Part shown: piece by piece, positions 15,544 through 63,424 of the stretch
Layout of the letters: the number at the start of each line of letters is the position of its first letter
How positions within the stretch are numbered: position 1 is the first letter of the stretch
DNA from: Sphaerolaimus hirsutus
Taxonomy: Eukaryota; Nematoda; Chromadorea; Monhysterida; Sphaerolaimidae
Reading direction: 5' to 3'
Assembly: GCA_964036195.1 (NCBI GenBank)
Contig: OZ038459.1
Coordinates: forward strand, 9,421,206 to 9,485,205
Length of the DNA stretch: 64,000 nucleotides
Program-made: the position numbers and the translations under genes
The notes under the pieces: model-generated
What the model was told of the DNA's origin: nothing
The model's database searches: none
Seen by the model: only the letters and a program-made list of their open reading frames with translations

Positions 15544-16527
15544 TGGCAGTCCCAAGCCCTGTAAAGTGTCAAATGCAAAGTAAACTGTCAATTGTCATGC
15601 AAAGTTCAGTAATAAAATCTTTTTTTGTTTGTTCTGATTGACACTTAACTTTGCATTTGACTTAATATTTGACACTTTACTTTACACTTTACAGGGCTTG
15701 GGACTTGGGTTGGGACAATATATCGTATCGAATATCGGATATCGACCATTTTTTCATATCGAATATCGAATATCGATATCGAAAATTTTGAAAAATTATC
15801 GAATATCGATATCGAATATCGACCATTTTTTCGATATTTTTCGATATTCTGGTATTCTTTTTGAGGTATTTGTGATCCCATAAAAAATGGCTGAAGCCAA
15901 CAAAAAGTGGATGCTGCAGCCAAACATGTATGCTTATGAGTGCACAAAGTAATATATCATATATAAATGCCATGTTATTTTCATATTGAGCTATCAAAAG
16001 TAGGGTATCAAGGGTAATGTATACACATCCTTACAAAATATATGATATTAACACAGCAAACTGCTTCACAAGGAAACCATTTCACCAAACCTTTGCATGG
16101 CAGCATGCCTCAAAAATTTGGCTGTTTATTTTAAAATACCAACCTTTTAAAAATGTAAAAAGCCAGCCACCCCTAGTCACAAGTATGACCTGAAGTGTTT
16201 GCTTAATAATTTTTCATATTATATAATTTGATTCATCCTGTTTTTCTTTCATTACCTCATTTCAACTGTTGTGAGCCTCATTTAAAAAGATTATCAACCA
16301 TGTTTTTGTCCAAATGGAAATACAATATGCCCCGCTGTACTAAAATATCGAAATATCGAAAATATCGAAATATCGATATCGAATATCGAGCATATTTTCA
16401 TATCGAATATCGATATCGAATATCGAGGGTCCATATCGTATCGATATCGAGTATCGACTTTCATAAAAAATATATCGAATATCGATATCGAAAAGTCATA
16501 TCGTCCCAACCCTACTTGGGACTGCCC
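15544..16527. mobile_element. Class-A introner-like element split by a hAT MITE
   Basis: It begins TGGCAGTCCCAAGCCCTGTA, reaches TTTACAGGGCTTGGGAC at 15689-15704, and after the insertion 15705-16514 finishes with CTTGGGACTGCCC. The flanks ACCATG and CCATAT suggest a short duplication inside an inverted sequence that also occurs at 16621-16670. Without the insertion the element is about 170 bp. Confidence 0.75.
15705..16514. mobile_element. hAT-type MITE filled with ATATCGATATCG
   Basis: The ends are TTGGGTTGGGAC and GTCCCAACCCTA, flanked by a perfect 8-bp duplication CTTGGGAC (15697-15704 and 16515-16522). Margins are ATATCGAATATCGATATCG arrays, as in the element at 2458-3079. Confidence 0.88.
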
Positions 16528-17025
16528 CCATATCCCATCTGAATAAACGAACATACATAAAAATTTCATCATATTTATCAAAGCAAATTTGATAAATATG
16601 ATGACATTTTTTTATGTTTGTTCTTTTATTTAGGTGGGATATGGTAGATTTCATTGTAAGGTGTAATGTTACTGGAGTATATGTGAAATTACACGCTCCA
16701 GCGCAATCATTTTGCAACTAGATGAATTTTGCAATTCTGAACACGCACCAAGATGTTCAGCTGCTGTTGAAAGGCTTAGATGTAGGTTTTGAAAAAACGC
16801 TGTTTAAAAACTTTAACATTCCTAGAAAATTTCGGTTCTTTCGGGTATTTACTTCGGTTCCGGGTATAAGTGCCGGTTCTCGGTTCCGGTTCGGTTCTCA
16901 AGCTCGGTTCCGGTTCTCGGTTCTCGGTTCCAAAATAGTGCTCGGTTCGGGTCGGTTCGGTTCCTCAACCCTACCCCCTGGAGACCCCCAAAAATGGCAC
17001 CCCATGGGGACCCCCTCTAAATCCT

Positions 17026-18150
17026 GTAAATGCAGCCCCTAGTTTGGAAACTCCTGTAAACTCAGCCCCTAATTTGGAAACTCCTGTAAACTCAGCCCCT
17101 AATTTGGAAACTCCCGTAAACTCAGCCCCTAATTTGGAAACTCCTGTTAACTCAACCCATAATTTGGAAACTGCTGTAAACTCAGCCCCTAATTTGGAAA
17201 CTCCCATAAACTCAGCCCCTAATTTGGAAACTTCTGTAAACTCAGCCCCTAATTTGGAAACCCCTGTAAACTCAGCCCCTAACTTGTAAGCTCCCGCAAA
17301 CTCAGCCTCCAATTTGAAAACTCCCATAAACTCAGCCCCTAATTTGGAAACTCCCATAAACACAGCCCCTAATTTGGAAACTCCTGTAAACTCAGCCCCT
17401 AATTTGGAAACTTCTGTAAACTCAGCCCCTAATTTGGAAACCCCTGTAAACTCAGCCCCTAACTTGCAAACTCCCGCAAACTCAGCACCTTATTTGTAAG
17501 CTCCCATAAACTCAGCCTCCAATTTGAAAACTCCCATAAACTCAGCCCCTAATTTGGAAACTCCCATAAACACAGCCCCTAATTTGGAAACTCCTGTAAA
17601 CTCAGACCCTAATTTGGAAACTTCTGTAAACTCAGCCCCTAATTTGGAAACCCCTGTAAACTCAGCCCCTACTTGCAAACTCCCGTAAACTCAGCCACTA
17701 ACTTGCAAACTCCCGTAAACTCAGCCCCTGATTTGTAAGCTCCCATAAACTCAACCTTTAATTTGAAAACTCCCATAAACTCAGCCCCTAATTTGGAAAC
17801 TCCCGTAAACTCAGCCCCTAATTTAGAAACTCCTGTAAACTCAGCCCCTAATTTGGAAACTCCCGTAAACTCAACCCATAATTTGAAAACTCCCATAAAC
17901 TCAGCCCAATTTGGAAACTCCCATAAACTCAACCCATAATTTGAAAACTGCTGTAAACTCAGCCCCTAATTTGGAAACTCCCATAAACTCAGCCCCTTAT
18001 TTAGAAACTCCCATAAATTCACCCCCTAATTTGGAAACTCCCTTAACCTCAGCCCCTAATTTGGAAACTCCCATAAACTCAGCCCCTAATTTGGAAACTC
18101 CCATAAACTCAGTCCCTAATTTGGAAACCCCTGTAAACTCATTTTCAGGT
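17026..18150. repeat. 30-bp satellite array
   Basis: About 37 copies of a 30-bp unit, CTCCTGTAAACTCAGCCCCT followed by AATTTGGAAA, with point changes and an apparent higher-order period of about 210 bp. A degenerate tail appears at 19110-19300. Because 30 is divisible by three the array is open in several frames on both strands (ETPVNSAPNL and its antisense), but there are no gene signals. Confidence 0.93.
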
Positions 18151-19110
18151 TTATGGTAATGTAGTGTCAAAATGGAATGAATATTTCAAATCATCGCTAT
18201 CATCAATCCACAAATGCATCAATTCACAATTTTCAATTTTTTAGCCTGGGGTTAGACTTAAAGGTTATGGCAATGTAGAGTAAAAATGGAGTGCACATCT
18301 CAAATCACTGCAATAAAAAACCCACAAATGCATCATTTCACAAATTGAAAGTTTTTGGGCCCAGGGGTTCATTATCAGGGTTTTAGTAATGTGGTGTCAA
18401 AATGGAGTGCATATTTGAAATTGCTACAATCAGAAACCCACAAATGCATCATTTTATGATTTGAAAATTTTTGGCCCTGGAGGTTCATTTTCAGGGTTAT
18501 GGTAATGTAAGTGGTGTCAAATGGTTATGGTGTCAAAATGAAGTGCATATTTCAAATCAAGGCAATCAAAAAGCCACAAATGCATCATTTCACAATTTCT
18601 AATTTATTAGCCCCAGGGGTTCAATTTAAGGCTTACAGTAATGTAGAGTTGAAATTGAGTTATTTCAAATCAGTGCAATTAGAATCACGCAAAATGCATC
18701 ATTTCACAATTTGAAATTTTTGGGTCTAGGGGTTCAATTTCAGGGTTTTAGTAAAGTAGTGTCAAAATGGAGTGCATATTTGAAATCGCTACAATCAGAA
18801 ACCCACAAATGCATCATTTTATGATTTGAAAGTTTTTGGCCCAGGGGGTTCATTTTTAGGGTTATGGTAATGTAGTGGCAAAATGGAGTGCATATTTTAG
18901 ATGAGTGCAATCAGAAACCCGAAAATGCATCATTTCACAATTTGAAAGTTTTGGCCCCAGGGGTTCAATTTCAGGGTTATGGTAATGTACTGTCAGAATG
19001 GAGTGCATATGTCAAATCATTGTAATCAGTAACCCACAAATGCATCATATCACAATTTATATTTTTAGCCCCGGCGGCCTCACATAAGGGTTATGGTAAT
19101 GTTATTGTCA
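18151..19110. repeat. ~110-bp satellite array
   Basis: Eight to nine copies of a roughly 110-bp unit: AGGGTTATGGTAATGTAGTG, TCAAAATGGAGTGCATATTT, then CCCACAAATGCATCATTTC and GGCCCAGGGGTTCA. It directly follows the 30-bp array. Confidence 0.9.
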
Positions 19111-20559
19111 ACTCCCATAAACTCAGCCCCTAATTTGGCAAACACCCATCAACTCAACTCCCATAAACTCAGCCTCTAATTTGTTAACTTGTCAACAGCC
19201 CCTTATTTTAAACTTCTGTCAACTCAAACTAATTTATAAACACCCATCAACTCAACCCTGAATTGTAAACTCAGCCCCTAAAAACTCAAGTCAACCCCCT
19301 ATACATGTGCAATTGCATTCTTGGGAAGCAACTTTGCCATCTACTAACCCTGTTTGTCAAGATTGTAAGGGATCGTGTATGTAAAGGACATTTTGTACTA
19401 ATAAAAAATGTCCACATTGTGTGTAAAAACACACACAAATTGGGTAGAGTCAGTGACGTCCTATTGTTTACGATGGAGCATACTGTCCACACGAATAAAT
19501 AGTGGCGTTATAATTGGTTAGACGAGATAAAGACGATTGCCGCACCCGCCGGTTCGCTCACACAGAACCGGCGCGTGGCTCACAACTTATCCCCTGCCCG
19601 GCCGTAAAGTAAACCCAGCCGTAATTATGCCTGGCCGTAAAGTAAACCCGGCCGTAATGGGCCTCCACACGCTAGTTGACATCGCATTTCAGAGTCAACT
19701 CAGAGTCAACTAGTGTTTCAGTTGACGCAATCACTCACCACTTGACTTTTTTAAAAGAGCATACGCGTTAACCCATATTTTTGGCATTTAGCTCATGTAT
19801 TTCATTGAAAAAGTCAACTGGAAAAATCCATTCTCAGAAACGAGTTGACCCTGCTTTCTACGATGCAGTTTGTGTGATTTAAAGAGTGTTATGTGATAGA
19901 CCATAATTAATCTGATTTTTTGACACCTAATTATCATATATTGTGTGAAGCATAACCAAATGAAAAATTATTTGCATGTTCCATATTCAAAATTTTTTTA
20001 TTGTTTACATGTGTGAATGCTTGTTAATTAGATAGTTGTTTCATGTACTATAAATGTCTGTGAATTTTTCTGTACTAATTCTCATTCGTAATAAATTTTT
20101 TTGAAAGAATAAAAAATCTTTTTCTTTAAACGGAAATTTATTTTTCATCGCGCAACACGGAATCACATCATAATGCCAACATAACCAAATGAAAGGCAAA
20201 ATAAACGCGAACACAGCAGTATTTTTTTTGAAAGAATCACATAACACAAAAGAAAGATATGAATTTTTCAATATTTCAAACTTCAATAATTTTAAAAAGT
20301 TTTCCTGGCAAGTTATGACAGCACTGAATGTGAAATTTGATATACTAAAACTATTGAAGCAAGTAACACAAGAAATTTCAAAAAACGGCAGCTTTTTCAA
20401 TTTTTAACACCTAAATATCTAACTCTGAAAAAAATTGATGAGTTGACACTGACAGTTTACGAAAATATGTCAACTGATTCATTTCACCTAGAAATGGATC
20501 AGTTGACATAACGTTTAAATCTGACTCATTAACTCAGAAATCTTACCAGTATACAGTAT

Positions 20560-22780: not shown

Positions 22781-23591
22781 TCAAGTTATCCAATTTTGGC
22801 AATTCAAAATGAATAAATTGTGTACGCGTATGCAAGAAATTGTATAAGTATGCAAAATCTCATACGCGTACGTTTTTTTGCGTTCGCGTATGCCAAAAAA
22901 ACATACGCGTACGCAAAAAAACATACGCGTATGCTTTAGTTGACTCGGCCAGTGACACAAATATCTGTACTGCCCAAATTTACTAGTTGACATTATCAAT
23001 TTGTGTACGCGGTCAACTGGAGTCAACTGAAAAAATTTTCAGTTGACTCTGAGTTGACATTTTACATGCGAAAAATGCGATGTCAACTAGCGTGTGGAGG
23101 CCCAATGATGCCCGGCCGTAAAGTAGCACCCCCTACTTTACAGATGGGTTTACATTACGGCCGGGTAGGCGTACTTTACGACTGGGTATACTTTACGGTC
23201 GGGTTTACTTTACGGCCGAGATCTCACCAAATTTTTTTAGTCAGGACTCGTGAATTGTCTCGCTACAACGTACGTGTTTTTTATTGTACATAGACTGCAG
23301 CTCCCCTATACACAACTTAGCGACGACTCAAAATACCTAAACACGACGTACTACATTCGTTACACTTAGATCCTAGCATTTAGGCCCCGAGTACTCGCTT
23401 TTATGCGATGGCCAACAATTCCGTTTTTCAACCATTTTTGGGAAGGAAGTTTGCCATGTGACGCCCCAGCGATCACGCTGCGATCAGAGGAATAACATCG
23501 CGCTTCATAGATAAAGTTATCTTGCCCTGGGAAACGGGGCTGATCAAGACCGAGACATAACATGAGTCAAATGTTCAAGGATGGCGAACAG

Positions 23592-23755
23592 GGGCCAGTT
23601 CCGAAAATTGAGAAGTGAAATGGCAAAAGCGAAGTAAATTGGCAAAGGCGAAGTGAAATGGCAAGTAAATTAGCAAATGCGAAGAAAATAAAAAAAGAGT
23701 AATTTCTCTTCACTTTGACGTTTTACTTCTCACTTCTCAATTTGCGGAACTGGCA
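23592..23755. mobile_element. Class-B introner-like element
   Basis: The ends are GGCCAGTTCCGAAAATTGAG and CTCAATTTGCGGAACTGGCA with inverted GAAGTGAAATGGCAAA margins. The terminal TGCCAGTTCC (minus sense) resembles TGCCAGTCCC of class A. It is intergenic. A second copy lies in an IVNS1ABP intron at 43864-44016. Confidence 0.7.
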
Positions 23756-24070
23756 CCTGGTGTTTGAAAACTCGAATAGGGAGTCCGGCTGGTTGAGGGA
23801 GACATCAAGTGGGTTGACATTTTTATGCCTTTAGGTAAATATATTGACACTGTCTTCGGGTGCAAAGCGAAGCAGTTTTTTGATTCATGATGGTGAATAT
23901 AAGTATGGCAAAACACATGATTAAACTTCAATATTTATATTCCCCCCAAAAGAATAAGGTAATAGAATTTACCGTGCAAAAGAAAGATGAATTATAAATA
24001 TTATAGCATATAATCATATTCCGCAGACAGGTATGTATTTTCAAATGTACATATATACCTGTATATAAAT

Positions 24071-25100: not shown

Positions 25101-28100
25101 TTAGCACACCTCCTTAAACCTCTCCTCGCTGTAGCTGACGGGCCAGAACAAGAATCTCTCATCGTGCACCGCTGGCACCCCCAGCTGATAAGCGATCATT
25201 GCCAGGAATATGTCATCGTACGGGTAATAATCCATGTATCTGGCTGCGACGGCGAAGCTTCTCGCCGTGTGGCCGTTCATCAAAATCGCACCAGCCGTTA
25301 TGTATGGCGGGTATGCGTCGAATGGGTAGTCGGCTGTAAAGGTGTTTTCTGTATACTGCGGGCCATCTAATATTTCTATATACGTTTCTGCAACATCATA
25401 GTTGTTCAAACGTATTTACGTTTACCCGAAAAATACGCATACCTGAGTACTGAGTAAAGACGTCTGTTTCCTCTGAAAAAGTTCCTGAACTCGCGTTTAC
25501 TTTTTGAAAGTATTTGAGTGCAGAAAACGTATTTCAAATTTCAGCTTTTCAAGGCATAGAAGGGAGAAGAAGGCTTAAAAAAATCAAAAAAGGGTCTGTA
25601 AACAAAAATAGCTAAAAATGGGCTAAAAGCGTATGAAAAAGTGAATTTGAAGGCAAAATGTGCAAAAAGGAATGAAATGTAGTGAAAATTCGGGCAAAAA
25701 TTACCAAAATTGCCACCTTTTACGTTTTCCGTGCGAAAAGTACGTTTTCTGTACTCAAGGGGTGAGTAAAAACACTTTACGTTTTCATATACTTTTAAAA
25801 AGTTTGGTACTTCTAACAACTCTGGTGCAAACACCGCCAAACGGTACTTTGTCATTGATTTTTTAATTCTTTTTTTAATTTTTTGTTGATGTTAAATTTC
25901 AAACTGACCCAGAGACACATAGTGCTTGTGCCAACGCAGGCGGAATGGACTAGTATCGAAGCGATATCCAGTATACACGTATTGTTTTGCATTTCGATTA
26001 GCTTCATATTTAGTAATTAGCCGTAACAAATTGGCAAAGTTTAGGAAGAAATCATCATCAATTAGCAAAAGATAATCGAAGTCTACACAGGACTCGATGA
26101 AGAGATCCAACCAGTGGAAAAGACTCAGCACCTGGAGCGATAAATTTTTAAAAAAATTGTAAAAACAGTATTCACAGTGGGCGCCACTAATTTCGTACAT
26201 TTCACCAGATCGGTTAGGAAAGGATGCGTGGAGAAAAGTTATGTCTCACCTGGTGCCGGTTCCGCAAGTGGACAAGTTAAGAGTTAAAAGTTAAGAGTTG
26301 AGTAAAAAGACAAATGGCGAGTTAAGAGTAAAGTTAAAGTTTAAGAGAAAAGTTAAAGTTTAAGAGAAAAGTTAAAATTTAAGAGAAAAGTTAAAAGTTG
26401 AGTTAAGAGTTAAAAGTTGAGTTGAGAGTTAAGAGACAAGTGGAAAATGATGGTAAAAAAATATAAAAAAATAAAAATATGAAATTGGTATCGATACGGC
26501 TGTTCGCTGGCATGATGCCAATGTTGTATGCACGTCATTTGAAAATAACGTATCCAAAAAAATTATCGCTAAAAAAAGAAAAAATCGCCGAACGTTGTTT
26601 CGAAATGGCCGTGCGGGGACAAAATATGATTGAAGATCAGCGTATCGCGCTTCTGCAACGAATGACCCATTTGTCTTTTAAATCAACTTTTAACTCATCT
26701 TTTAACCTTTAACTCAACTCTTAACATTTAACTCAACTTTTGACTCAACTTTTAACCTTTAACTCAACTCTTAACTTTTAACTCAACTTTTGACTCAACT
26801 TTTAACCTTTAACTCAACTCTTAACTTTTAACTCAACTTTTGACTCAACTTTTAACCTTTAACTCAACTCTTAACTTTTAACTCTTAACTTGTCTACTTG
26901 CGGAACTGGCCCCAGTATTTCCCCTGTACATATCCAGATGTGAATTTTTTTGATCAAATGCTGTGCCCCTGTTAATTGATGTGCCTTATTGCCCATTTTC
27001 AACTATTTTTAGGAATATAAATATATTTTAACTAGCGATTTTTCTCGTTTTTCTGCCTTCTACACCATGAAAAACATTATACATTGACGCCCGCTAATAC
27101 CCTCGACTAGTGATGTGAAAGAGCAATGGCGCTGGCGGCTGCCGTCTGGAGCTAGCGCCAAAGCAAAAGGCGCCATGGCGCTTGGCGCCATTTTGCTCTG
27201 GCGCCATTGGCGCTTGGCGCTAGGGGTCGGAAAAGCGCCATGGCGCTTGGCGCCAAAGTTCTGACGCTTTTCACATCACTACACCCGACCACCCAAGAAA
27301 AAGGTGCAGCTACTTATAAATACCAAATCTATTAGACCCCTGGTGAGAATGACCCAGTGCCTGAACTCATTTAAACACACTAGTCATCTGCGACCCCGTG
27401 TGCACGCGCATTGCTTTTCTCAGTCTTTTGATGACACTGCTCAAAACAAAATTGAAAAACTGATAAATCAGTCACTATATGTAAATATTTGAGTTTTTAA
27501 ATGTTTCTTTTAGCGGTGTCATAAATACAGTGACAAAAACAATGAACAATGGTGCTGATCATGTAAACCTGCTGCAGCCCCATGCCGTGCTAATTGACCC
27601 CGCTAGTCATCTACCCCCCCCCCCCCAATTAAGAGCATAGATGACTAGCGGGTCTAGATGGGTAGTAGGTAGGAATACATGGCTGGTGGGTCTAGATGAC
27701 TAGTAGGCCTAATCCGTGAGGAGTCTGGTAGGGGCTTAATCAGACACGCACAACAACGAAAACAACCGCACCAACTACGGAATATATTTTACGAGTGTTT
27801 TCATACCAATTAATGTCCACAAACCTTCAGCGTATTGTTGCGGTAGTTATCCCGAATATCCACCCACAGCACATCACCAAAAGTTTTTGATTCCAAAGCC
27901 AGCTGAACTCGATCGTCCACATTGGCAGGATTAGCGACGGCGAAATTGAGGTAGACACCAAATCGCTTGCCATCCAATGTGGCCATGAAATGGCTGCCGG
28001 CTCGACCCCAAGAATCGCGAATGGCAGCGCGCTGATGAGAGTTGCCGGCAGCCGACTTGACCATCACTCGCAACCAGGGGGCACTCCCAGACCCTGTAAA

Positions 28101-29232
28101 AGACCCTGTAAAGTGTAAAAGCCCTGTAAAATGTCATGTGTCATGTAAAAGACCCTGTAAAATGTCATGTGTCATGTAAAGACCTTTTAAAGTGACAAAT
28201 GTCACGTAAAGGACCCTTTTATGTGTCATGTGTATCCGAATAATATTTTATTGTATCAAAATCTTATGGTTTTGTATCCAAATATAATGTCAAAAAGTAA
28301 GATTTGGATACAAAAACATAATATTTGAATACGATAAAATAAGATTAGGATAAACATGACACTACAGGTTTTTTTTACATAACACATGACATTTTACAGG
28401 GTCTTTTACATGACACATGACATTTTACAGGGTTTTTTACATGACACATGACATTTTACAGGGTCTTTTACATGACAACTGACATTTTACAGGGTTTTTA
28501 CACTTTTCGGAGTCTTTTACAGGATCTGGGAGTGACACCAGGTCATAGTGCCATCCTTGGGTGGGCCGGTGCCGCGCTTCCGACACGCGGTCATGGTTTT
28601 GGGCTCGTGCAGCCATGTGAAGGAGTGTGGCTGCAGATGCACCGTTCCGTTGACGTTTACGGTGGATAGTTCACGCTCTACCTGGAAATTTGAATGTATC
28701 TTACTGAGATATTGAATGAAGCACGTTTGAGGTCATGGCCAACGTTTGAAACCAACATTTTCACATGTTAATCAACAACACCATTCTTTTTCACTAGAAT
28801 TAATTCTTTCTAGGATATGTAGGTAAACAGTCTCCGACTTGTATTGTCGAATATATTTTCGGTAATATTTATTTGTGCCAGCAGATATGCATGCATGCAC
28901 ACATGTCACACTGAGAAGCAGCACCCAGTCTTTTTAACATGCCCATCAATTTTTCAAGTATAGTTCAATCAAGTTACGAAAGTCGGGAGAGTGACCACCA
29001 GTCTTTTACCACAGAAAACCCCCCCGCAACAACCAAAAAAGCCACCCACCAAACTCTTCACATCCACAAAAGGCGGCCACTGAAACTTCCTAAAGGGCAC
29101 CTCGACCAGGTGGTCGACCACCCCATTAAAGTACAGCAAGCAGAGAAGGACGCACAGCGACACGATCTGCAACGGCCAGCCAGCGGACTTGAGCCAGCGC
29201 GATACACCGTGCATGGGTCTTAGTATATGCAT
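25101..29232 (-). CDS. brn: Brainiac-type beta-1,3-N-acetylglucosaminyltransferase
   Basis: Type II Golgi glycosyltransferase (GT31 family). In flies brainiac adds GlcNAc beta-1,3 to mannose of glycosphingolipids. Coding exons: 29050-29232, 28537-28681, 27825-28093, 25909-26131, 25101-25333; summed length 1053, about 350 residues (fly protein 325). A short cytoplasmic tail and membrane anchor (IVSLCVLLCLLYF) lie in exon 1. Catalytic features follow in order: VMVKSAAGN, IRDSWG, FGDVLWVDIRDNYRNNT, the metal-binding DDD of LLLIDDDFF, YVSL-DYPFDAYPPYITAGA and YPYDDIFLAMIA. All junctions agree in phase. Start: the ATG giving MHILRPMHGV; the downstream ATG (MHGV) is an alternative. Oddity: the intron 28094-28536 is a transposon copy inserted into coding sequence, adding WSGSAPW before WLRV. 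If it is not spliced as proposed, the gene is disrupted. Confidence 0.85.
25405..25832. repeat. ACGTAAACG-motif TIR element in brn intron
   Basis: The ends are GTTGTTCAAACGTATTTACG and ACTTCTAACAACTCTGG, with inverted AACGTAAAATAC-like margins. It fills most of the last intron of the brn gene (25334-25908). Confidence 0.65.
26254..26912. mobile_element. Class-C introner-like element with AGTTAAGAGTTAAA array
   Basis: The ends are TGCCGGTTCCGCAAGTGGAC and TACTTGCGGAACTGGCC, similar to the class-B ends GGCCAGTTCCG and TGCCAGCTCCGCAA. Margins are inverted arrays of AAGTTAAGAGTTAAAAGTTG. The core is about 170 bp and unique. It lies in the brn intron 26132-27824. Confidence 0.7.
27108..27281. mobile_element. 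hAT-type MITE with GGCGCCATGGCGC palindromes
   Basis: The ends are TAGTGATGTGAAA and TTTTCACATCACTA. The flanks CCCTCGAC and CACCCGAC fit an aged 8-bp duplication. It lies in the brn intron 26132-27824. A sister copy with a perfect duplication is at 29488-29776. Confidence 0.75.
28079..28536 (-). mobile_element. Class-A introner in brn coding sequence
   Basis: On the coding strand the element runs from GTCACTCCCAGATCCTGTAA to TTACAGGGTCTGGGAGTGCC and is flanked by a perfect 6-bp duplication CCTGGT (28537-28542 and 28073-28078). The brn frame on either side continues as TMTW|LRVMVKSA if the element and one duplicate are removed, so it entered an exon. Splicing that keeps the frame uses a donor exactly at the element edge (TGGT|GTCACT) and an acceptor 15 bp inside the other end (TTTTACAG|GG). 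The interior is inverted ACATGACACATGACATTTTA motifs. Confidence 0.88.
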
Positions 29233-33944: not shown

Positions 33945-36900
33945 TCATGACGCAACGAAAACGTCGCTGTTATCCGCATTATCGTCGTGCGGCGCGGCGG
34001 CGGCATTAGCGGTCGACGGCGACACCCAGCTGCACCACTCGCCCCACACTGAAATTGAACGTGCGCGTGGAGAACGGGCCCAGAGTTGTTCAAATACCGG
34101 TATTTTTGGAAAACGTAAACGTAAACGTAAATACCTTTTCCAAATTTAAAGTATAAATACTAAAACGTAAGGTATTTTTAAAATACCAAGGAATACGTAA
34201 AAGAAAACGTAAACGTAAAAATTTCAAGAAGTACCCCATATGAGCAGAGCTTCTGAAAAGACCATTGTTGTGACATTTTCAACAATGTATTCATGTTTCC
34301 ATCCACATTTTTCACTTGCATTTCATAGCAAAGAAAACATCTTTTTTGAAATGTTTACCTTTGTAAATGAATGTTGGTGCTGATGGCCTCGCAGTTTAGC
34401 AAGCTCTTGGATTAGAACACTTCTTCATCAAACATTACATTTCTGCTAAACATCAGCACGATGTCAGCAGAGTCTAATGCACAATACTCCCATAAATACA
34501 CACATTCCATTTTCTGCATGTATTTAAAGCTATTAATATATTCATTCACCACACTGTTCACATTCAACAATTGACACATTGATTACATTTAAAATTGCTT
34601 GATTACATTTATTGAGAATATTTGCACTGTCAAAACGACAATTACACAACACCATTGGCATTATGTCCAATTGGTATAACTTTTCACACAAAATCAATAT
34701 GTGACTGTGTAGTAATAGAGCACATTTGGCAGACGCGTGGTTGGATTTTTACGTTTTCTCTGGTACCCGGGTAATTGTGCCAGGAAAACGTAACAAAACG
34801 TAATGGTATTTTTGGAAAACGTAAACGTAAGTATAACCGGGTATTTCGGGTAAACGTAAATACGTTTTTCCAACTCTGAGAACGGCACACAAAGTAGGGG
34901 GTTTCCGGGATTTTGACCCTCGCGGGGGGCAGCATTAGTTGATCGCTCGGGGGTTGGGGGCTGCCCCATTGGAGAGCTAAAGGGCCCTTCAATATATAGG
35001 TTTTTTCCAGGGTGTAGAAGGAAGAAAGGGTGAAAAAAATCGCTGAAAATAGCTAAACATAGGTTTATAAGCACATATACCTAGTACAAAAATAGCTGAA
35101 AATAGGCAATCAAACACACGAACTAGCGATTTTGAAGGTGAAAATCGATTAAAAGTATGAAAATTAGCGATTTTGAGCAAAAATTGGGGTATAATTTTTC
35201 AAAAATCGCTCAAGATAAAGTTAGGAAAATAGCTGGCCGATGGTGGGCGGTGTTCAGGGGATAGTATTCAAAAACTTTGCCTCCGGGATAAGTAGATAGC
35301 TGAGCGGTTGGGGGGGCGGGGGTAACCCCCCCTCCCCAGTGGAGATGCCTACCCGAGACATAGCTGGCCGATGGGGTGGGGTGTTCAGGGGATAGTATTC
35401 AAAAACTTTGCCTCCGGGATAAGTAGATATCTGAGCGGTTTGGGAAGGGGGCGGGGGTAACCCCCCCCCCGTGGAGATGCCTACCCGAGACAATCACCAT
35501 CACGCCAACCCGATAAACCCACCAGGAGAAAACATTTCAATCGTATTCAAGAACTGCTTTCCATTGAACCCGCCAACCGCCACAATTCTATCAGCGAGCA
35601 CGACTGCAGCGACATTGGCCCTGGGGAGCAGTCCCAGACCCTGTCAAAAACCTGTAAAATGTCAAATATCACGCAAAGTGTCAAAAGTCATGTATAATGC
35701 CCTGCAAAATGGCAACTCAGTTTCCATGACTCATTTTCCATGACTTTTGACACTTTGCGTGACACTTGACATTTTACAGGGCACTTTACGGGGTCCGGGA
35801 CTGGCACCTGGGCACAGTGAGCGAGGGCGCCGACGACCAACAGGGAGCGTCGGGCCGCTCGAGCACCTCGACCGTGGCTAGGGACTGCTGCCCGTCGCTG
35901 CCGCCGATCGCGTACAGCTTGTCTGCGGTTTGAGCGCTGATTGGGTGATTTGCAGCTGGGATTTGTAAAATTGGGATTTGTGGAAATAACCTACTGGATT
36001 GAAACGAGTTCACCGAAAAAACGGGTACCGTATTGGCTTGTTTTGAACCCCGGGCACTGTATTTTTTCACAACGTCCTTACAGTGGCACTCAATTCGAGC
36101 ATGGCACTCTATTCGAGCATGGTACTGTATTATTTCATAAGGCAGTTCAATTCCATTATAGATATCGATACACATATTTTGGTACGTATATCGATTCCAG
36201 CTGCGTAATTATGATGTAATTGCAACAGCTGCGTCAAATAGATGCAACAACGCATACGACTAGACATTTTTTACCAACAGAAGCGACAGAACAGAAGCCA
36301 CTCGTCGCATGCAGTAACGTTTTTAAACGTACTGCGTTTCCCGCGTCATGTTTGCTTCTATTACTTAGGTGTGGGGGGCACTCAATTCAAGCATGGCACT
36401 GTATTGTTTCATAAGACGGTTACCCTGGCACTGTATTCAAGCATGGCACTCAAATCAAGCATGGCACTCAAAACAAGCCAATACGGTATATTAGCTTTTA
36501 AAGGCGATACAGAGCAGTTGACAGCCGGTCAACTGGAACGTCTGTTTTAAGATAACGTTCAGCTCATGGAAATGTTCCATTGTGGCTTTGTGAATGGCAC
36601 AGACAAAATCTTACATCCCGCGAACTGAAAAATGTTTCAGTTATTTTTTCGTTTCTTTTCCTGTCAAAATCAGTTTCACATAACAAACTTGTTAAATAGC
36701 TGTACGTATAATAATCTGCGCATAGAAAAAAAGCCCAGCACCCAGCTAAAACTTCAGCGAACACCTGAATACCCCCCCCCCCAACACACCCCTGAAAACC
36801 ACCAGCGCGCAACCCCTCCTGGGCGTGGAGAGGGGCGGCAGCGACGCCCAAGCGTTCTGCCTGGGATCGTAGCATTCGACCGCGGCGGTGCAGTTCCACT

Positions 36901-39900
36901 GGTCGCAGCCGCCCGCTGCCAAAATGCGGCCCTGCCACGCGCAGCAGCCGGATTGGTAGCGCGCTGGTGAAATGGGGGTGACGTTTTAGTCGACGTTATA
37001 TTAGAATTCATGGGTAACTTAAAAGAAGAGAAACGTTTGGACTGGACCAGTCAATGAGAGCAAAAAAATTCGAAGACTACTACACAAATACGGTAATCAG
37101 TTTTAAAATCCGTTTTAAATAATTTTTTTCCGTTTTCGTTTCCGGCAAGTGCAAATTTTTTCCGTTTTCCGGCCGCTGAATTTTTTTCCCGTAAAAATTT
37201 TTTTTACACCCTAGTCATAGTGTCCACAACCCAAACAGCCCCCCCTCACCCATATTCAAAGGCGCAATGGGACTCCAAGTACCCATCCCAGGATCATAGA
37301 CCTCGCAATCCCTGCACACCACCTGGCCATTGTACCCAGCCACGCAGTAGATCTTTCCATCCAGTTCGGCGCACGAATTGTGGCTGCGCGGCACGTTCAA
37401 AGGGGATAGCTGTTGCCACTTTGGGCAGTCGGAGGTGCCCGGCTGCAGGCACTCGACCGAGGACAAGTCCGCGTGCCCGTTGCTGCCGCCCACCGCGTAC
37501 ACCTAAGGGAGTGGTTGGGCAGTGCGAATTGTGGATTGGTGAAGATAATATAGCCAGCGCTACAATTAGTGTAAAAAAGAAGGCAATTGATAAATAATAG
37601 CCTAGTTAGCTAACTGTTTTGTTGAAAGTCAACCACGGGGCAGTCCCAGACCCTGTAAAGTGTCAAATGTTATGTAAAATGTCAATCAAAAAAGACAAAG
37701 ATTTTTTACTGAATATTACATGAAAATTGACACTTTGCATGACATTTTACAAGACATTTGACACTTTACACTTTACAGGGTCTGGGATTAACACCAGCGG
37801 TCAAATGAAAACGTGTTTCGATTAACAGGAAGTAAACGAAATAAAATAAAATATAAAAAATAAGTAATGATTTTTTGCATAGCGGTGCAAAAAGGGATGC
37901 ACTCAAGCCAACGTCTCTCTCATAAACCTTGAACAACCGCCAACAACCACCAACACAAACATTCCAAAGCCTCAAAACCAACAGTGCCTCGAGCCTGAAC
38001 CACTGCGGCGCCCAATCTGCCCCGTTCGGTGGTCATGTCGGCGGCGGGCCACCAAGCGTTCCGCGCCAACGAGAAACACTCCACCGAGCTCATGCACTCG
38101 CCCCTGTCGTAGCCGCCTGAGTGGCATGGGGGGTTATTGGGGGGTTGTTTGGGGGGTTGGCACATTTTGGAGGGGGAGGATTGGCACATTGTTCAAATTT
38201 TGTTTGAGTAAAAATAAGACGGGGACATTTTCAATTACACCCCTTGCTGTTGGCATTGCAAATGCTGTTCCGGGCATATTTTGTGCGATGTTCTGTTGAT
38301 TTGACTTCCCTGTCATTTTTTTTACGTCTAGCCGTGGGCGTATTTACGCATTATACTTGGGTAACTGGATATTTACGTCATTCTACACATTTGAATAGAA
38401 GTTTGCAGACTCGACAGCAAAACAGCTGCTGAATACCAGTGTATGAACATTCATCATTAATCGCACTTTAGTTCAACACGTTCGAATGTTCACATTCACA
38501 TCACAACTGTCGAAATATATACATACACACAGACAGTAGCGACCGACCCCGCCCTGACTATTCCAACATTCATTCAGATTTCAGATCGGATCAGAAAGAC
38601 ATATCAGTTAAAAACTGCCAAAAGTTTGCGACAAAAACGAAAATGAATCTTCATTGCAATTCATTGAAAAAAACGGCAGTTGCAAAAATATCCGTAGATT
38701 ACGGATCGTGCGCATTGCATTCATATTTTTCGACTATATTAAAAGTTTTTCACGCCCCCACCAGAAATTCAAAGTCACAAGGTCGACGGTTGACTATTTT
38801 TTTTACAAACGCTGTCCTTGAAGTATTATCCAAGCTCTGTGCAACAAAATGGGCCACGTGACGGGACATATCATGAACCACGTGAAAAATGTTTTACCGT
38901 GCAAACGCAAATACGGTCCAGTACAAATTCCAAGGTTGCAACATTTTTCGCTAAACTTCAGTCGACAGCCAAAAATAGACGAATTATAAAGTGGAAAAAC
39001 GAGTTCCAGACAAAATAGTTTGGATGTTTTTACAAAAGGACACCATTTCCGCTAAGTACTATTTGCACGCAAACAAGGCAATCTAGTTTGGAAAGCGGTT
39101 TTACATTAGGAGATAAAGTCAAAGTGGAATTAAAATAGGTAAATAATGCACAAAGCTGTTCACTTTCGACGCAGCGTGAGAGACAACAGTCACTGAGTAA
39201 ACAACTTCGCAAGACGATTAGCAACCGTCTACCTATTTTTGGTTGTTCCCCAAATAAAAAAGAAATGCCAATATTCACAAATTCCTTGCGCTGCGGCAGC
39301 AAAAAAAAACAAAGAAAAAAATAACGCTCATTAAACTAAGTTTCACCACTCCCAGCACGCACGCACTTAGTTAGTAGGGTGCGGATTTTGGGGCCTAAAT
39401 GACCATCTACGCGCAGAAAAACTATTTCGGTTTGCCCCTATATTATGAGCTGTTCATCAGCTGTAATATCGGAAAAGCCATCAGTAGGGTGTCAAAAAAT
39501 TTTTTACTGAGAACGGAAAGGTAAATAAATTTCTTTGGAAAACGGAAAGTTGACAACCTAGCCGTATCCACAACCCCTGCACTCACCCATCACATAAAGC
39601 ACATCGTCCAGCACAACGGCGCCCACTGAACATCTACTCCTTTGCATCTGCGCCAGCGGCAGCCTGCCCAGCCCGTCCTGCAGACATCTGTGGATCATGT
39701 TTTGCCGTTCCGACTGCACAGTGCCGCAGTCGGAGCCGAGCGAGTTTGTCGCCGCCGCGGTGCATGTTGGTGAATCGACTGCCGCTTGAGTGGGCGCTGC
39801 CGTGTGCGTGGGGTCGGATGGGGGTTGGCTGGCTACGGGAGAGACTTGACCCTGCGACGGTTTGCACAAGTGATGGACGAGTTTGAAATTTTGGAAGCGC

Positions 39901-42900: not shown

Positions 42901-44577
42901 CAATGCATGATACACGTAAGAATCACCCAACTGAAGGCTCGGACGGGTCTGGACTATTCCGCATGTAAACCCATCCCGCATGTTGACCAGGAACACATTT
43001 ATTTTTACCCGACATGCTGAAAATAGACAATAAAACACATGACCTGCTGATTTTGAAGGTGAAAATGTATAAAATTTTACGATTTGGGTGAAAATTTGAG
43101 TAAGATTGCTCAAAAGCGCTGCAGATAGCTAGGCAATTTGCGGGGGAGGGGTGTTCAGGGGAAAGTAGCCAAAAAAAATTGCCCCAGGGATAGATAAATA
43201 GCCGGGCATTTTGGGGTGGGGGTTACCCTCCCCCTTTCTTACCCCTGCCGGTATAATGTGTCTATAATGGGTCTACATGCGTGATGAGTTTACATGCGTA
43301 ATAGGTTTACCCGGCTCGAATACCGACCCGACCCGACCTATCAGCGCAACATTCATCAAACGGTACGATTTACGCCAATGTAAAAAAATACGGATCAACC
43401 AGACAAAAGATAAAGCCCATGGTGTGCAAATCACTCGATTCAATTGCCCGCAATAGCCCCCAAAAACAACCAACGTTCACTCTCCCCATTAGCCGCAGGC
43501 GTAGTAGCATCCAGGTGATCAACCCCACCATGATCCTGCTCAACCCGGGGCGGAGTAGTTTCCTGCCCATGATGTCCATTGGCCGTCGCATTGGCGGCCA
43601 TATTGTTCAACCTGCCGCCGGTGGGCACTATGAACTGGTCGTAGAAGGCGGGCGACATGGCCGCCAGCACGCAGCGGTGCGCGAAGATTTCGCGCCCGGC
43701 TACCAGGAGGACTACGTCGCACAGGTCGCGGCCCCGGCGCAGGGTGTCCAGACGGTGGAGGAGGGTGTCCTGCGGGTGTGTGGGGTTACGGTTGCGGACC
43801 GAAGGGCCATTTTTAAGTTGCAATGAGTTGTATTTACGCCATACAGACAAGCCAAATAACTGGTGCCAGCTCCGCAAATTGAGAAGTGTTAAGTAAAATG
43901 GCAAAAGCGACGTAAAACGGGAGAAGTACCGTTTTACTTCTCAATTCACTTCGCTTTTGCTATTTCACTTCGTATTTGCCATTTTACTTCTTACTTCTCA
44001 ATTAGCGGAACAGGCCCCAGATCTCATCTGTTTTTATGATCAAATTATTATTTTAGTTGGCGTGAATTTTCAAGACTTGGCTGAAAATTTAATTGGTATG
44101 AAATTTTCTACCGTAGAGACTTTAAACTTTGTTCACAACTTAAAGAAAATGTCATAAACGTGCCTTAACAATCTGCACTTAGCTAAGTCTTCAACAGCTA
44201 GAAGTTTTCTTAAAATTTCTATCAAGCACATTCTAGCCGACAACAGAGCACAAGAAAAACTCCAAGGCCTGCAAAATTTGGAACAATGCAATGCACCACT
44301 TAAAATGTGAAATCACACCTCCATAAATCAATCCACAAAGCCCTCAATTGGAAGAGACCCCGCATATTCAACCAACCTTGAATTCAGGGTCCACACAGCT
44401 GAGCGTGACGGAATCGCTGTCATTATATTCAGCCGCCAGCACATACTCAACTTCATCCCCGCCGATGGACACATCCCTTCTACAGGATACCGGCCGCAAA
44501 AGGGGCACCTTTTGGCCGGTCTTTAGCGCGGCCAGAACCGATCTTTCCGGTCTACTTGATGGAGTTGAAATTGGCAT
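33945..44577 (-). CDS. IVNS1ABP: IVNS1ABP-type BTB-BACK-kelch protein
   Basis: Fifteen coding exons, all phase-matched: 44377-44577, 43475-43769, 42458-42679, 41882-42027, 41474-41608, 40795-40965, 40281-40485, 39924-40027, 39587-39851, 37983-38116, 37250-37502, 36790-36963, 35808-35922, 35523-35620, 33945-34048. The sum is 2622 nt, about 873 residues (human protein 642). Order: novel N-tail, BTB (LCDVVLLVAGREIFAHRCVLA... LVNYGYTSRLSI) with a Gly/Asn/Thr-rich insert, BACK (LLAAQVDAYIQ), Ser-rich linker with SDEIAWKVIA, then six kelch blades (GGYDRGECMSSVEC, VYAVGGSNGHADL, IYCVAGYNG, AAGGCDQWNC, YAIGGSDG, VAVGGFNGKQFLNTIE). Blade sequences match IVNS1ABP best (GGSNGHSD, SWNCLNTVE, GGFDGNEFLNTVE). 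The vertebrate protein binds actin and is linked to cullin-3 ligases and splicing. One intron (35621-35807) is a transposon. Confidence 0.9.
34083..34881. repeat. ACGTAAACG-motif TIR element in IVNS1ABP intron
   Basis: The ends are CAGAGTTGTTCAAATACCGG and TACGTTTTTCCAACTCTG, with margins of AAACGTAAACGTAAA. The unique core of about 500 bp lies in the last intron (34049-35522). Confidence 0.7.
35000..35490. repeat. Tandem GGGATAAGTAGATAGCTGAGCGG repeats
   Basis: Two near-identical units of about 127 bp (35236-35362 and 35363-35490) contain ATAGCTGGCCGATGG, TTGCCTCCGGGATAAGTAG and a C run. Related sequence occurs at 8434-8955 and 43080-43250. It is intronic in the IVNS1ABP gene. Confidence 0.65.
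35626..35806 (-). mobile_element. Class-A introner forming an exact intron
   Basis: The element runs, on the coding strand, from TGCCAGTCCCGGACCCCGTA to TGACAGGGTCTGGGACTGCTC. A perfect 6-bp duplication CCCAGG flanks it (35807-35812 and 35620-35625). The intron 35621-35807 is GTGCCAGT...CTCCCCAG. The donor G comes from one duplicate plus the element's TG, and the acceptor CCCAG is the other duplicate. The joined exons read SLTVPRANVAAVV, which matches the family without gain or loss of a residue (human TSPRSNAGIATV). This is the signature expected of an intron born by transposition. Confidence 0.93.
36026..36488. mobile_element. TACCGTATT-ended element with GCATGGCACT motifs
   Basis: The ends TACCGTATTGGCTTGTTTTG and CAAAACAAGCCAATACGGTA are perfect inverted repeats. 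Margins repeat CACTCAATTCGAGCATGG. It shares the outer TACCGTATT with the G-run MITEs but has a different interior. It lies in an IVNS1ABP intron (35923-36789). Confidence 0.8.
37638..37792 (-). mobile_element. Class-A introner-like element within an intron
   Basis: The ends, in plus sense, are GGCAGTCCCAGACCCTGTAA and TTACAGGGTCTGGGATTAAC, with short flanking ACCA repeats. It is about 155 bp and lies in the IVNS1ABP intron 37503-37982. The intron extends beyond the element on both sides, so this copy probably entered an existing intron. Confidence 0.8.
38117..39586. other. Large IVNS1ABP intron, no element defined
   Basis: This 1.47-kb intron lies between exons 9 and 10 and contains unique AT-rich sequence and short degenerate repeats. 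Plus-strand frames at 38643-39018 have no domains. Confidence 0.5.
40603..40785. repeat. ACGTAAACG-motif element in IVNS1ABP intron
   Basis: It begins CAGAGTTGCGAAAACATTTT and ends ATAATTTTACAACCCT, with TTTACGTTTACGTTTTCC margins and a CCCGGGTA motif. It lies in the intron 40486-40794. Confidence 0.65.
41058..41423. mobile_element. TACCGTATT-family MITE in IVNS1ABP intron
   Basis: The ends are TACCGTATTTCCTCGATATA and ATTTGGAGGAAATACGGTA. It lies in the intron 41609-40966 (between exons 5 and 6) and makes up most of it. Confidence 0.75.
43080..43260. repeat. Fragment of the AGATAAATAGCCGGGCA repeat
   Basis: TTGCCCCAGGGATAGATAAA and TTCAGGGGAAAGTAGCC match the repeats at 35236-35490. It is intronic in the IVNS1ABP gene. 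Confidence 0.5.
43864..44016 (-). mobile_element. Class-B introner-like element in IVNS1ABP intron 1
   Basis: Its ends are TGCCAGCTCCGCAAATTGAG and CTCAATTAGCGGAACAGGCC, with inverted GAAGTAAAATGGCAAA margins. It shares the terminal logic of class A (TGCCAG(T/C)(C/T)CC flanked by CTGG/CCAG). It lies inside the intron 43770-44376. Confidence 0.75.
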
Positions 44578-48453: not shown

Positions 48454-51400
48454 TTACACTTCACCGTCAAACAGCTGATCGCCTTCAATCTCATACTCAT
48501 CTTCATAGTCGTCATTCTCAGCTACCTCCTCGATGTGGCTGCCTGAGTTGAGTAATTTGAGTAGACGGTGCTCACTAGATGCTCGTTGACTGCTCAATGA
48601 ATGAGTAATTGTTACCTATATAGTCTAGGGATCTATTTCGAAAGTGCTCACCTTTACACGTTATTATTGAAAGTACGCGAGGGGTTTTAACAAAAAATCA
48701 ATGGGGAGCGTAAAAAGAAAAAAACAACTCAAATGAATTGAAACGGTTATGAAAATGGCAGTATAAATGATCAAAGTTACGATGAATTGGTAAAGTGACT
48801 ACTCTCACTTTTACTTGAACCGCCCCTTGTTTTCCTGGGTACAAAATAAAAAAATTCGCTTTTACCCAAAGTAAACATATGGGTAGTTATGTTTACCCAC
48901 ATACCCACAATTTACGCTGTGTAAAAATAAAAAATTCTACTTTACATTTTCTATACTCAGGAATGAGTAAAAAATACTTAACGTTTACATTTACTTTCAG
49001 AACTACAGTAAATACTTTTACCAAGCCTGCCCAACCACCTGCGAGCACCCTGGCACCGCTGTCACCAGAAGAAACATCGGCATCGATCTGAGCCAAGTGC
49101 GCCTTGGTGAAATCGCCGTGCTTGCTGTGATCGGGCAAAAGGTTGCCCACGGGAATAGCTGTCGGGTTGCGCTGGAAGCCAAAACGGCACGCTGCAGGGC
49201 ATCTGGACATTTGAAGTGTTGAAGGGCATGATGGACAGGGCCTGTAGAACAGTGGAATGCCATGCAAACCTGAGCACGGCAACGGCGGACAGTGCAGAGC
49301 GATCGCTGCCCAGTGGGCCTACTCGCTGCCAGCTTTTGGTGATGGTGTCATAACGTTCAACCTGCATGATCAAAACAATAACAGGTGCGCAATCAATTAC
49401 CTAATTAAGCATGTACACATCAAAGACAACATACCGCGGTCATTGTATTGGCGCCGTCGTAGCCGCCGATTGCGTACACCCTGCCATCCATAGCAGCGGC
49501 GGCAAAGTTGCTTCGGCGGTCGTGCATAGATGGACAATTTTGCCACACGTCCACTGGCACCCTGGATTGCGATGAGTTGTTTACAGTATTTGCTTGAATG
49601 AATCTACCGGGAATTATTCATTTCGTCAGACTGCTTTGAGGAGCGAACTATTCGAGGGGGAATTATTCAAAGGAGGGGAATTATTATTTCAGCAAAATTT
49701 TCAAGCATGTTTCTATCAACCCTTTTTCCAAAAGATTCTTTAAAATTGGACGTAACAAGTTGATCATATGCCTTAAAGGGGGGACTATTCAAGGGGGTTA
49801 TTATTTGTCCTCACTCAACATTTAGGGGGAATTATTCAAGAGGGAGAATTATTTAAGGCGGAATATAAGCAAAAACAGTATGCGATAAATATCAAAACGA
49901 GAACACAAATTTGCGCATTGCCCCATTTACCTGCTGTCAGTAGTGCAGTGTCCCGGGTTGAGACTCTCCATACTGGACAAGCGCAGCTGGCCATCATAAC
50001 CCCCAATAGCCAGCACCAACATCCCACTCTTGTTCTCAGCGCGCCCGTGTAGCATGTCGCCTTCACATCTGGGCGCCGCGGCGGCATTGCTCGACTGCAG
50101 CGGCTGCCACGAGAGCCAGGGACGGCCGCCGTCGTGGGGCACACAGGTGAGAGACAGGCCGGACCTGGGTGGGGTGGGGTATGTTTGTTGGAAGTTGGAA
50201 GTATCTAATGTGTGGGGTTTTTGGATTCTGGCCCATGGTATCAAACAGTACAGGCACGGCAGTTTGTTTTTTGAAAATGCCATACAATCAGGTGACTCGG
50301 ATAGTTTTTGTATTCAGCGTTCCCGTTTTCGGATCTGCAGATCGCCGGTATAATTTGAACGATATACTGCTATAATTTTTGAAAATCTCAGAAAATGTCT
50401 CAAAAATGATGTAAATCTAATAAAACCTGTCTGGAAAATCTTTGCAAAATATCAATTTAAAAATCTTAACTTTCTAACATAAATTTCCACAGCATTTTCA
50501 ATGCCAACCTGGGATTGGTCATGGGCGCGAGCATGGTCCACACGTTGGTGTCCGGGTTGTACAGTTCGACGGAGCGGAGCACGTCGCGGCCGTCGAAGCC
50601 GCCGGCGGCGATCAAACGGCCGCCCACCGCGCACAGCCCCAAGTCGGAGCGCTCGTGGCGCATCGGCTGACGAATGGAAGAGATTAATATAACGCATTTG
50701 AGGGAATTACCTACATTCGGGTCCGGAATTGACGTTTCGTCATCTTTTTCAACAGCATGACCGTCGCAAAAAACTGCAAAAAAATTATCTTTTTTGCGTT
50801 AGTTAATTAAAAAAAATATAGTACCGTATTTTTTCTAATTGTATGGCATACCTCCAATACAACGGCACCTCCAATAGAAAGGCATTTCTTGACACGTTTT
50901 TGCACCCACGAAAAAATAGAACGGCATCCTCCAATAGAACGGCATGTAAAAAAGTTTACAAAAAGAAGGGCGCTCTTCTATTACAAGATATTTATACGGT
51001 ATCTAGATTTATATAGCTTCTGCGATTCAGAACTACAGCACACCAGAAAACAGTCACTAAAATCTCAACATTTCCAACGGCGCATTGTGGTTGTGGCCCA
51101 TCCAACCTACCTGCACCTCGATCCACATGTTCGTGTCGGGCTCGTACACCTCGCAGGTTCGCAGCCTCCTCCTGCCGTTGTAGCCGCCGCAAGCGTACAG
51201 TTTGCCGTTGAGCGTCGCCGCGGCCACGTAGCACCGGGCCTCGTGCATGGGCGCCCGCATGACCCATTGAGGCTGCCGCCGACGCAGGTCTAGGGCGTGG
51301 GTAGTGCTGGGGGGGAGGGGGTTGTACAGAATTTGTTAGAATGACTGAACTTTTTTAAAAGTATATTTAAACGTAAAGTATTTATTTTTTGCTCACCACA

Positions 51401-54400
51401 AAGTATCGAAAACGTAAAATACTTATTTTTTACTCGTACGCACGCGTATATGAGAGTACAAAATTTTTTTTCCCATTAAAATGCAAAAGCGAGCACTTTT
51501 CTTCATAAAATATGTAGAACTGGGTACGTTTTTGAAATACAACCCTCAAAACCCTACGAATTAAATAATTTCCCCCCTGTCGAAAGCCCCCCCCCAAATT
51601 GAACGTAAATGGAATGTAAATATTAAAACCTTCAGTTTCACCTGCATTTCACAGAACACATGTTTAAACAATGACCAAGTCACATTAGAACAGAGTATAT
51701 ACCATCTATATTTACATACATATATATGTAAGTCAATAAAATCACTCTTATACATGGAGCTTGTTGTTGCATTGTTCTACCTCAGCGTATGTTACAAAGA
51801 ACGAATTAGTGCTGAGAGTTCTGAAAAATTCTGGCGAAATAAAAAAACCCTCGAAATACCCGCCCTTGTTTAACTCCCCTCAAAATTTTCACTATAAACC
51901 ATTCACTCCCAGGGGTATTTCGAGGAAATATAGTAAATTGCAGCGTAGTCGTCACCTTATAAATATGTGCCAAATTGAATTCACAGAAATACATTTTCTT
52001 TACGCGTATGCCTCAAAAATGTACGCGTACATGTGAGTACGTTACTTTAAAAAAAAGTATATGTAAACGTATTTACCGCGTACTCGCGTACGCGTATTTC
52101 TCGAGTAAACGTACGTACCTTTTAACAACTCTGGGGTTGTAGAGTGGATAGATTTGGTGTTACATGCAGAGCCTGTAAAATGCCCTGTAAAATGTTAAAT
52201 GTCGTGCAAAATGTCAAACTATCAATGAAAATATATAGTATAAATTTGACATTTTACAGGGAATTTTACATGAATTTTGACACTTTGCATGACATTTGAC
52301 ATTTTAAATGGTATCGGACACTGGGAGTGTCCTCTGCACTCACGACAAGGAAATGGAGAGAATCTGGAACACTTTCTAAATGCATTCTATTTATACTGGA
52401 CGTTCATCTTCACACTTAAGATAATGGATTGACACGGATAATAAGAACGATCACCTGTAGTAGTGGATACCGTCGGAGCCGCCCACGGAGTATATCACAT
52501 TGTTGAGCAGGGCGCAAGCGTGGTAGGCCCTGCCGGTGGGCTCGCTGTACACCGCCGGCGACAGGCTGTACCAGGTGTTTGTCTGCGACGTTTGCTATAG
52601 GTCGGTTTTGAAGCGCAATTACCGTATTTTTTCCAATTTGATGCCGATACTTTTTCATTGTGTTTGAATGACTGATTAGAATGTGTTCGGTATGTTAAAA
52701 CAGTGCATTAGTCCACTAGGTATATATAGGAATGTGGTCAACAGAGGAATGCACGTTTTTTATTGAATTTACTTTATGTGAATGATTCCAGAATTACCCA
52801 TGCGTTCATAGTACCAAAACAGATTCCGCGTTGACTTCTTTCCCATTTGTCAACTAATCAAGTACACGCCGCGTTAATTAACCAACGCATCGGTCAAACG
52901 TCTCCACGACAGCGGTGGGCGCGCCGTTGGACCAGCCGCCCACTGCGAACAGCACGTCGACGGGCGAGCGCGGCCGCTGCGCGTACTTCTGCGAGACACC
53001 GTGCATTTTACTTCCAGTCAGGACGATGAAGACATATTTCGAGGAGTGTAGCTGGTAGACAAACCAGCAAAGAGCAGACGGGCTGGCGCCAGTGTTGCGC
53101 TGCAGTCACGCTACCAGCTTCCCGTGCACAGCGAGATGTCTGCGCATCGCGAAACCTTGTTACCTTCCGAAAATTTTTTTGTTTTAATCAAAACTGCACA
53201 TTTAAACCTTATCACACGCACCCTATTAGCCAAGTGCGGCTCAGCCAACAGCCTCAACTCTTTCACCACCTCTGCCCTGCCGCCAGCACCACCAAAACTG
53301 GCATGGCTGTCAGCAGCGCCAGCAACACTACCAATCAGATTGGTGACGTGTTTGCGCCAGTAGGAGCTGTCGCAGAGGCCAGACCGGACGCAGTGCACCA
53401 GCGCGGAACAGTGCGCCAGGTGCTGTGGCTTGTGCATTAGCTGCGGTGCGGTTTTTAGGGGTTCAGGTGTGTGTGGGAAAGTAGATGCTCAACTTATTGT
53501 TAAATAAGTATTTAATTTGCTAGCTACTTATTGAACTAACTTGCCAGTTTCTCAACTTATCAATTGACGACAAAGGTTGGTAAGTTACACGTAAACTGAC
53601 GTGTTTACTGGTAAGTAACAAATAAAGTAACAAGTGTATTTTCACTTGTATTAAAGTATTTTCATCACTATAGCAATGAAAAGTATTTTCATTACTGTAG
53701 CATTTATTCAATAATTATTCGAGTAAATACGGTAATTTCGGTATATTCCCATCTTGCGTGAAGACTCAAAAGCCGTGAACAAAAGCCTCACCCATCTGCA
53801 GACGACCCTAAGGACATCATGTTCATGCTCCACATACAAGTCGTCGCTTCTCAGCACCGCCTGAAGTTCGTCCACATCCAGTTCAAGTAGCGAATTGACG
53901 GCTTCACTTCTGCACACGTTTTTCGGACATGCCAGCACTTCTCCTAGTGACAGCCGCCTGGCACAGTGGTGCAGCAGGTGACGCGCCGCCGCCCGGTACA
54001 GACGGCCGCACAGCATTGATTGAGAATTTCTGCGTTTGGGTGAAATGTGATCAGAATGACACGTTTCTCCGGTAGCGCGATTCATTGCATTTTTAATCTT
54101 GCCTATGGAATGAAAAAATTTTACGCTTTCCCTGTACCTGGGTATTTCGGTTAGGAAAACGTAACAAAGCGTACGTGTATTTTATGAAAGCGGAAGCGTA
54201 AGCGTAAATATTTGTACCCATATACCCGGGTACCTGCGGTAAGCGTAAATACGCTTTCGCAACTCTGCACACAATACACTGACAAAAACTGGACAAATCA
54301 ACCGAATGAAACACCTGAACCAGTAGACAGCGTTGTGGTCCGTTACGGTAGGCACCAACGCCTCAGCGATGTAATGCACAGCGGCCAGCGCGTTCCACTC

Positions 54401-63399: not shown

Positions 63400-63424
63400 G
63401 ATTTAAATTGTTTGAGCTGGGAGG

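Follow-up and report, generated by a model that had tools for sequence, protein, structure and literature searches.

Is the intron predicted between two kelch-coding exons of an IVNS1ABP-like gene a mobile element that has become an intron? The question comes from a 64-kb window (the whole stretch of nematode DNA analyzed here), where an intron on the minus strand had been described as consisting of a terminal-inverted-repeat (TIR) element plus one copy of the hexamer CCCAGG. This composition was verified in the sequence, with the intron measuring 187 bp and the core of the element 181 bp (Table 1). We consider it likely that a short non-autonomous TIR element (MITE-like) entered the coding sequence of this gene at CCAGG and that splicing now takes it out as an intron.

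The host gene and the predicted splice joint

The host gene combines BTB exons with a kelch domain nearest to that of IVNS1ABP, as befits an orthologue. Pfam searches of the minus-strand ORFs recovered BTB and Kelch domains, each in two exon ORFs. A protein search with the 301-aa spliced model of the kelch part, in which scoring was limited to the 8000 candidates with most words in common, returned 328 matches (120 listed). The best 30 of these show 41–47% identity, and six of the 30 bear the name "influenza virus NS1A-binding protein", the others being mostly unnamed; P0050 among the matches is the Mytilus IVNS1ABP. A 73-aa piece compared with PDB sequences did not single out IVNS1ABP, with KLHL12 and designed kelch proteins ranking higher.

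If the element is left in, the coding frame from either side meets stops inside it. If it is removed, the frame reads ...SSAPSLTVPR|ANVAAVVLADRIVAVGGFNGKQFLNTIEMFSPG, joining the two halves of one IVNS1ABP kelch repeat. The further claim that removal would restore the repeat without gain or loss of a residue is borne out by an alignment of the window gene with 19 of the 120 listed matches (20 rows), wherein 18 of the 19 homologues have an unchanged number of residues across the joint SLTVPR|ANVAAVV; the exceptions noted around it are P0037, with 12 extra residues at that point, and P0035, with four extra about ten residues downstream. The Arg with the split codon is invariant in all 20 rows, and hence one AGG would have come from the gene itself and the other copy would have arrived with the insertion, which argues for a true duplication at this locus.

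Table 1. Features of the 64-kb window discussed in the text (families A and B are the two related groups of element copies).
Feature	Positions	Strand	Remarks
Coding exon K (kelch)	35808..35922	-	gene model and alignment; 3' end ...ACT GTG CCC AG at 35808
Predicted intron K-L	35621..35807	-	187 bp, GT...AG, phase 2 (AG|G); donor first base 35807, acceptor last base 35621
Coding exon L (kelch)	35523..35620	-	starts G GCC AAT at 35620; own donor CTG|GTGGGT predicted by eye
Left CCCAGG	35807..35812	-	last G is first base of predicted intron
TIR element core	35626..35806	-	181 bp, hairpin; TG end on 5' (donor) side
Right CCCAGG	35620..35625	-	closes predicted intron (CCCAG|G)
Galactosyltransferase exon ahead of element	28539..28681	-	contains Cys88 (alignment numbering), invariant
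Family A copy	28075..28538	-	splits beta-1,3-galactosyltransferase gene; CCTGG at both ends; predicted splice ends ambiguous
Galactosyltransferase exon behind element	27825..28074	-	LRVMVKS...
Family A copy	984..1375		right end eroded; not in annotated coding sequence
Family A copy	9603..9824	+	ends TG / CG; outside annotated coding sequence
Family A copy	15540..15705		one end lost against another repeat
Family A copy	37633..37798	-	within longer IVNS1ABP intron H-I (37982-37503), not flush
Family A copy	52155..52333		degraded ends; between kelch matches of second kelch gene
Family A copy	57806..58024	-	outside annotated coding sequence
Family B copy	23589..23759	-	
Family B copy	26250..26915	+	within galactosyltransferase intron 3-4 (27824-26132), not flush
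Family B copy	43860..44020	+	just 5' of first BTB exon of IVNS1ABP-like gene
C2H2 zinc-finger exon	3619..3951	-	
Tandem array	14292..14921		periods 28, 82, 137; open as Pro/Thr-rich repeats
Tandem array	17022..18141		30-bp unit, 37 copies; one frame open as repeated peptide (NLETPVNSAP-like)
Tandem array	18151..19111		AT-rich, period about 115
Second BTB/BACK/kelch gene	49275..56300	-	KLHL-like; exons by Pfam and tblastn
SH2-domain exon	63163..63402	-	

The element core is near-palindromic, with inverted arms at 35651–35699 and 35732–35780 (49 nt, 92% complementary) and a mismatch of the outermost three TIR bases (TGC vs GAG). The proposed history would begin with insertion of the element at a CCAGG site in the kelch coding sequence, with CCCAGG at both edges. 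In the left repeat, the final G would combine with the TG end of the element to make the donor AG|GTG, the right repeat would supply the acceptor CCCCAG|G, and the element would then be spliced out, making the intron younger than the gene. With TG at one end and GG at the other, the element would give a working intron in one orientation only.

A second copy in a galactosyltransferase gene

A copy of the same family splits a gene for a beta-1,3-galactosyltransferase, the spliced model of which matches Pfam Galactosyl_T with an E-value of 9e-29. Of nine homologues, seven come from named nematodes, one bears no species name, and one comes from a mollusc, which makes a nematode host probable. This copy is flush with the coding sequence, the tblastn match of P0122 beginning with LRVMVKS at 28073, directly after the right CCTGG; it shares the orientation of the copy in the IVNS1ABP-like gene and presents the same end at the donor. 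Its removal exactly at the edges would require a TG acceptor. The site offers 11 in-frame GT-AG combinations, among which the one nearest to the edge (28538/28084) retains nine bases of the element, while those with a donor in the preceding exon lose a Cys that all 10 aligned rows share, the stretch around it being otherwise poorly conserved. Judged by its sequence, this predicted intron derives from the element, with splice ends that are themselves predictions and ambiguous. The copy is also larger than its short counterpart in the kelch gene, owing to a tandem unit of 31 bp and a second, inner palindrome at 28371–28525.

Terminal repeats and splice sites of the modelled introns

The control set comprised 13 modelled introns of the IVNS1ABP-like and galactosyltransferase genes, with the IVNS1ABP introns A-B, F-G, and L-M left out because their ends are not fixed. 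When the first and last 70 bases of each intron were compared for terminal inverted repeats, the two element introns scored 34 and 42 and the other 11 scored 5–8; in the IVNS1ABP copy the best ungapped part of the repeat begins 27 bases inside, and the portion outside it can be aligned by allowing a gap of one base. Introns alike to near both splice boundaries, the hallmark by which introners are recognized in PMC9860276, thus amount to two of the 13, the ends of the second being ambiguous.

On a matrix of the 11 ordinary donors, which themselves score 0.5–10.4 (leave-one-out), the IVNS1ABP donor CAG|GTGCCA scores –2.3 and the edge donor of the galactosyltransferase copy –0.9, although host boundaries picked by eye flatter the host set. 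The +5 position is G in all 11 ordinary donors and C in both element donors (GTGCCA, GTGTCA). The IVNS1ABP acceptor is ordinary, scoring 6.2 against 3.1–13.4 for the host acceptors. The splice sites originally predicted, viz., a donor made of AG|G and the TG end and an acceptor CCCAG|G, agree with the anatomy and the frame, but the donor falls below all 11 ordinary ones. There are 11 in-frame GT-AG combinations at this site too, and 35807/35621 alone leaves the conserved stretch from Trp to Arg intact with no residues inserted. Three in-frame combinations score above this exact one, all with donors in exon K; these donors were rejected, as their use would remove conserved residues including the invariant Arg. 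Pairings of the edge donor with upstream AGs of the copy were rejected as out of frame.

The RNA strand of 35616–35812 gives a fold of –111.4 kcal/mol (z –12.3), a stability equaled by none of 200 shuffles, and a hairpin this strong could mask both splice sites. Together with the weak donor of both in-gene copies, it raises the alternative that the element struck an exon and is spliced poorly or not at all, so that the allele would be disrupted, or the gene broken in the individual sequenced. The intact frame would then reflect only an insertion into coding sequence that duplicated its target, since every clean insertion of that kind restores the frame. Such an exon hit would, however, have had to occur in two different genes within 64 kb, in identical orientation and with the exons otherwise intact, and the copies are well diverged (about 70–84% identity in the longer BLAST matches), contrary to very recent insertions. 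We regard it as unlikely and retain the reading of a spliced element.

The element family and its terminal motif

Profile and BLAST scans and a search for paired termini bring the window total to 11 copies or relatives, i.e., the IVNS1ABP copy and 10 others. Terminal inverted repeats and several copies, as seen here, are the marks of a TIR DNA transposon or MITE. Five copies went into the family A profile and so match it by construction; the copies at 984, 15540, and 52155 are not among the five. The paired-termini search yielded eight pairs in the window, of which six belong to the 11 copies, as against 0, 0, 1, 0, and 0 pairs in five Markov-shuffled windows; the hits at 24207/25719 and 50289/51644 look like chance and were not counted as copies. 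Family B has the TIR TGCCAGTTCCGCAAATTGAG and an interior unlike that of family A, but its terminal pattern is alike (CWGG, with TG at one end and GG at the other). The family-end patterns had no matches in either the viral-contig or the genome-contig collection.

Of the 11 copies, those at 28k and 35k sit flush against coding exons, those at 37.6k and 26.3k lie within longer modelled introns, the one at 52k is situated between kelch matches, and six are outside annotated coding sequence (including 43.9k). The pair inside longer introns (37633–37798, 26250–26915) indicates that landing in introns happens, and the IVNS1ABP copy could accordingly mark an old intron position in which an element landed, the remaining intron sequence then being lost and the element alone left. 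We find this quite improbable, given that the fit is exact to the base on either side, with CCCAGG at each edge, and that a similar flush copy occurs in the second gene. The richness of the window in repeats likewise brings to mind an assembly error or a haplotype artefact, but clean direct repeats with frames on either side, found at two loci, make this a very remote prospect. Insertion into coding sequence followed by recruitment as an intron remains our preferred reading.

Both ends are readable in eight copies (9.6k, 28k, 35k, 37k, 57k, and the three of family B). In seven of the eight, one end is TG and the other GG, the exception being 9.6k with CG as its second end, and CWGG stands directly outside 14 of the 16 readable ends. 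The central base of CWGG is the same at both ends in three copies (28k, 35k, 57k), differs in four (9.6k and the three of family B), and is unreadable in one (37k). The original prediction had taken CCCAGG for a 6-bp target duplication. The hexamer is indeed present at both edges of the element, but since CWGG flanks most ends family-wide it is only partly a target duplication, and a secure 6-bp duplication was rejected as a rule for the family. In view of the disagreement at the central base, the safe wording is that CCWGG is a palindromic motif of the target or of the termini, not a plain duplication. Among the papers listed in our literature search on target duplications of the form CWGG or CCWGG, none had the motif, and we therefore leave the transposase superfamily unnamed.

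A gene-destroying element should be rarer in coding sequence. The window contains 108 CCWGG sites, 14 of which fall in the annotated coding sequence of the two genes (2919 bp; these 14 include one repeat from each of the two insertion sites); set against this proportion, the two of 11 copies in that coding sequence give no sign of exon exclusion, with numbers too small to carry weight.

Intron gain by an introner is thus partly upheld. In its favor are the exact anatomy, the frame with its residue-neutral joint, the TIRs in just two of 13 introns, and a multi-copy family with a second flush copy in the same orientation, its TG end at the donor, all as an introner family would predict. Counting against it are the weak predicted donor without a +5 G, the three better-scoring combinations, the CWGG disagreement in four of the eight wider-family copies, and the need for a TG acceptor in the galactosyltransferase gene. 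More speculatively, the TG/GG polarity and the CCWGG preference of an introner family might make any correctly oriented exonic insertion a ready intron at AG|G, and the half-matching CWGG might reflect a recombinase that exchanges a short core with its target instead of a duplicating DDE transposase; we offer this doubtful scheme only tentatively.

Relation to known systems

MITEs are short, multi-copy, near-palindromic elements with inverted repeats. The window family resembles them in all these respects and departs from them in that its target duplication is not secure. Among animals, Henriet et al. are said to have described, in 2019, MITE-derived introns in Fritillaria borealis that are largely non-canonical. 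The two cases would have in common animal introns thought to derive from TIR elements, whereas at the IVNS1ABP locus GT...AG splicing is predicted.

A closer parallel is furnished by the TIR introners with duplicates presented in the main text of PMC9860276 (Gozashti et al. 2022), in which splice sites are shared between element and duplicate and some introners add codons. Here, too, a TIR element would equal the intron, with splice sites split between the element and the repeat at its insertion site; mRNA length would be unchanged at the IVNS1ABP locus, and GT-AG splicing of the second copy would add codons. Unlike in those introners, the flanks are a palindromic CWGG whose central base often disagrees, and the case consists of two element-introns from 64 kb versus a genome-wide set. 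Intron gain in nematodes is treated in PMC9169325, passages of which name introners as known from other groups. Among the matches listed in our literature search, the coverage of which is without most subscription papers, there was no nematode introner family.

Intron gain in animals is poorly documented, and the survey of PMC9860276 places introners in only two animal groups, its main text being without any word starting "nematod". The window probably harbors a nematode family of introner-like elements that provides, in 64 kb, two predicted element-introns, one with precise ends and the other imprecise, which suggests that mobile DNA has been creating new introns in this nematode. If true, a nematode family with two element-introns in 64 kb would be an animal system in which intron gain could be dated and perhaps traced between populations.
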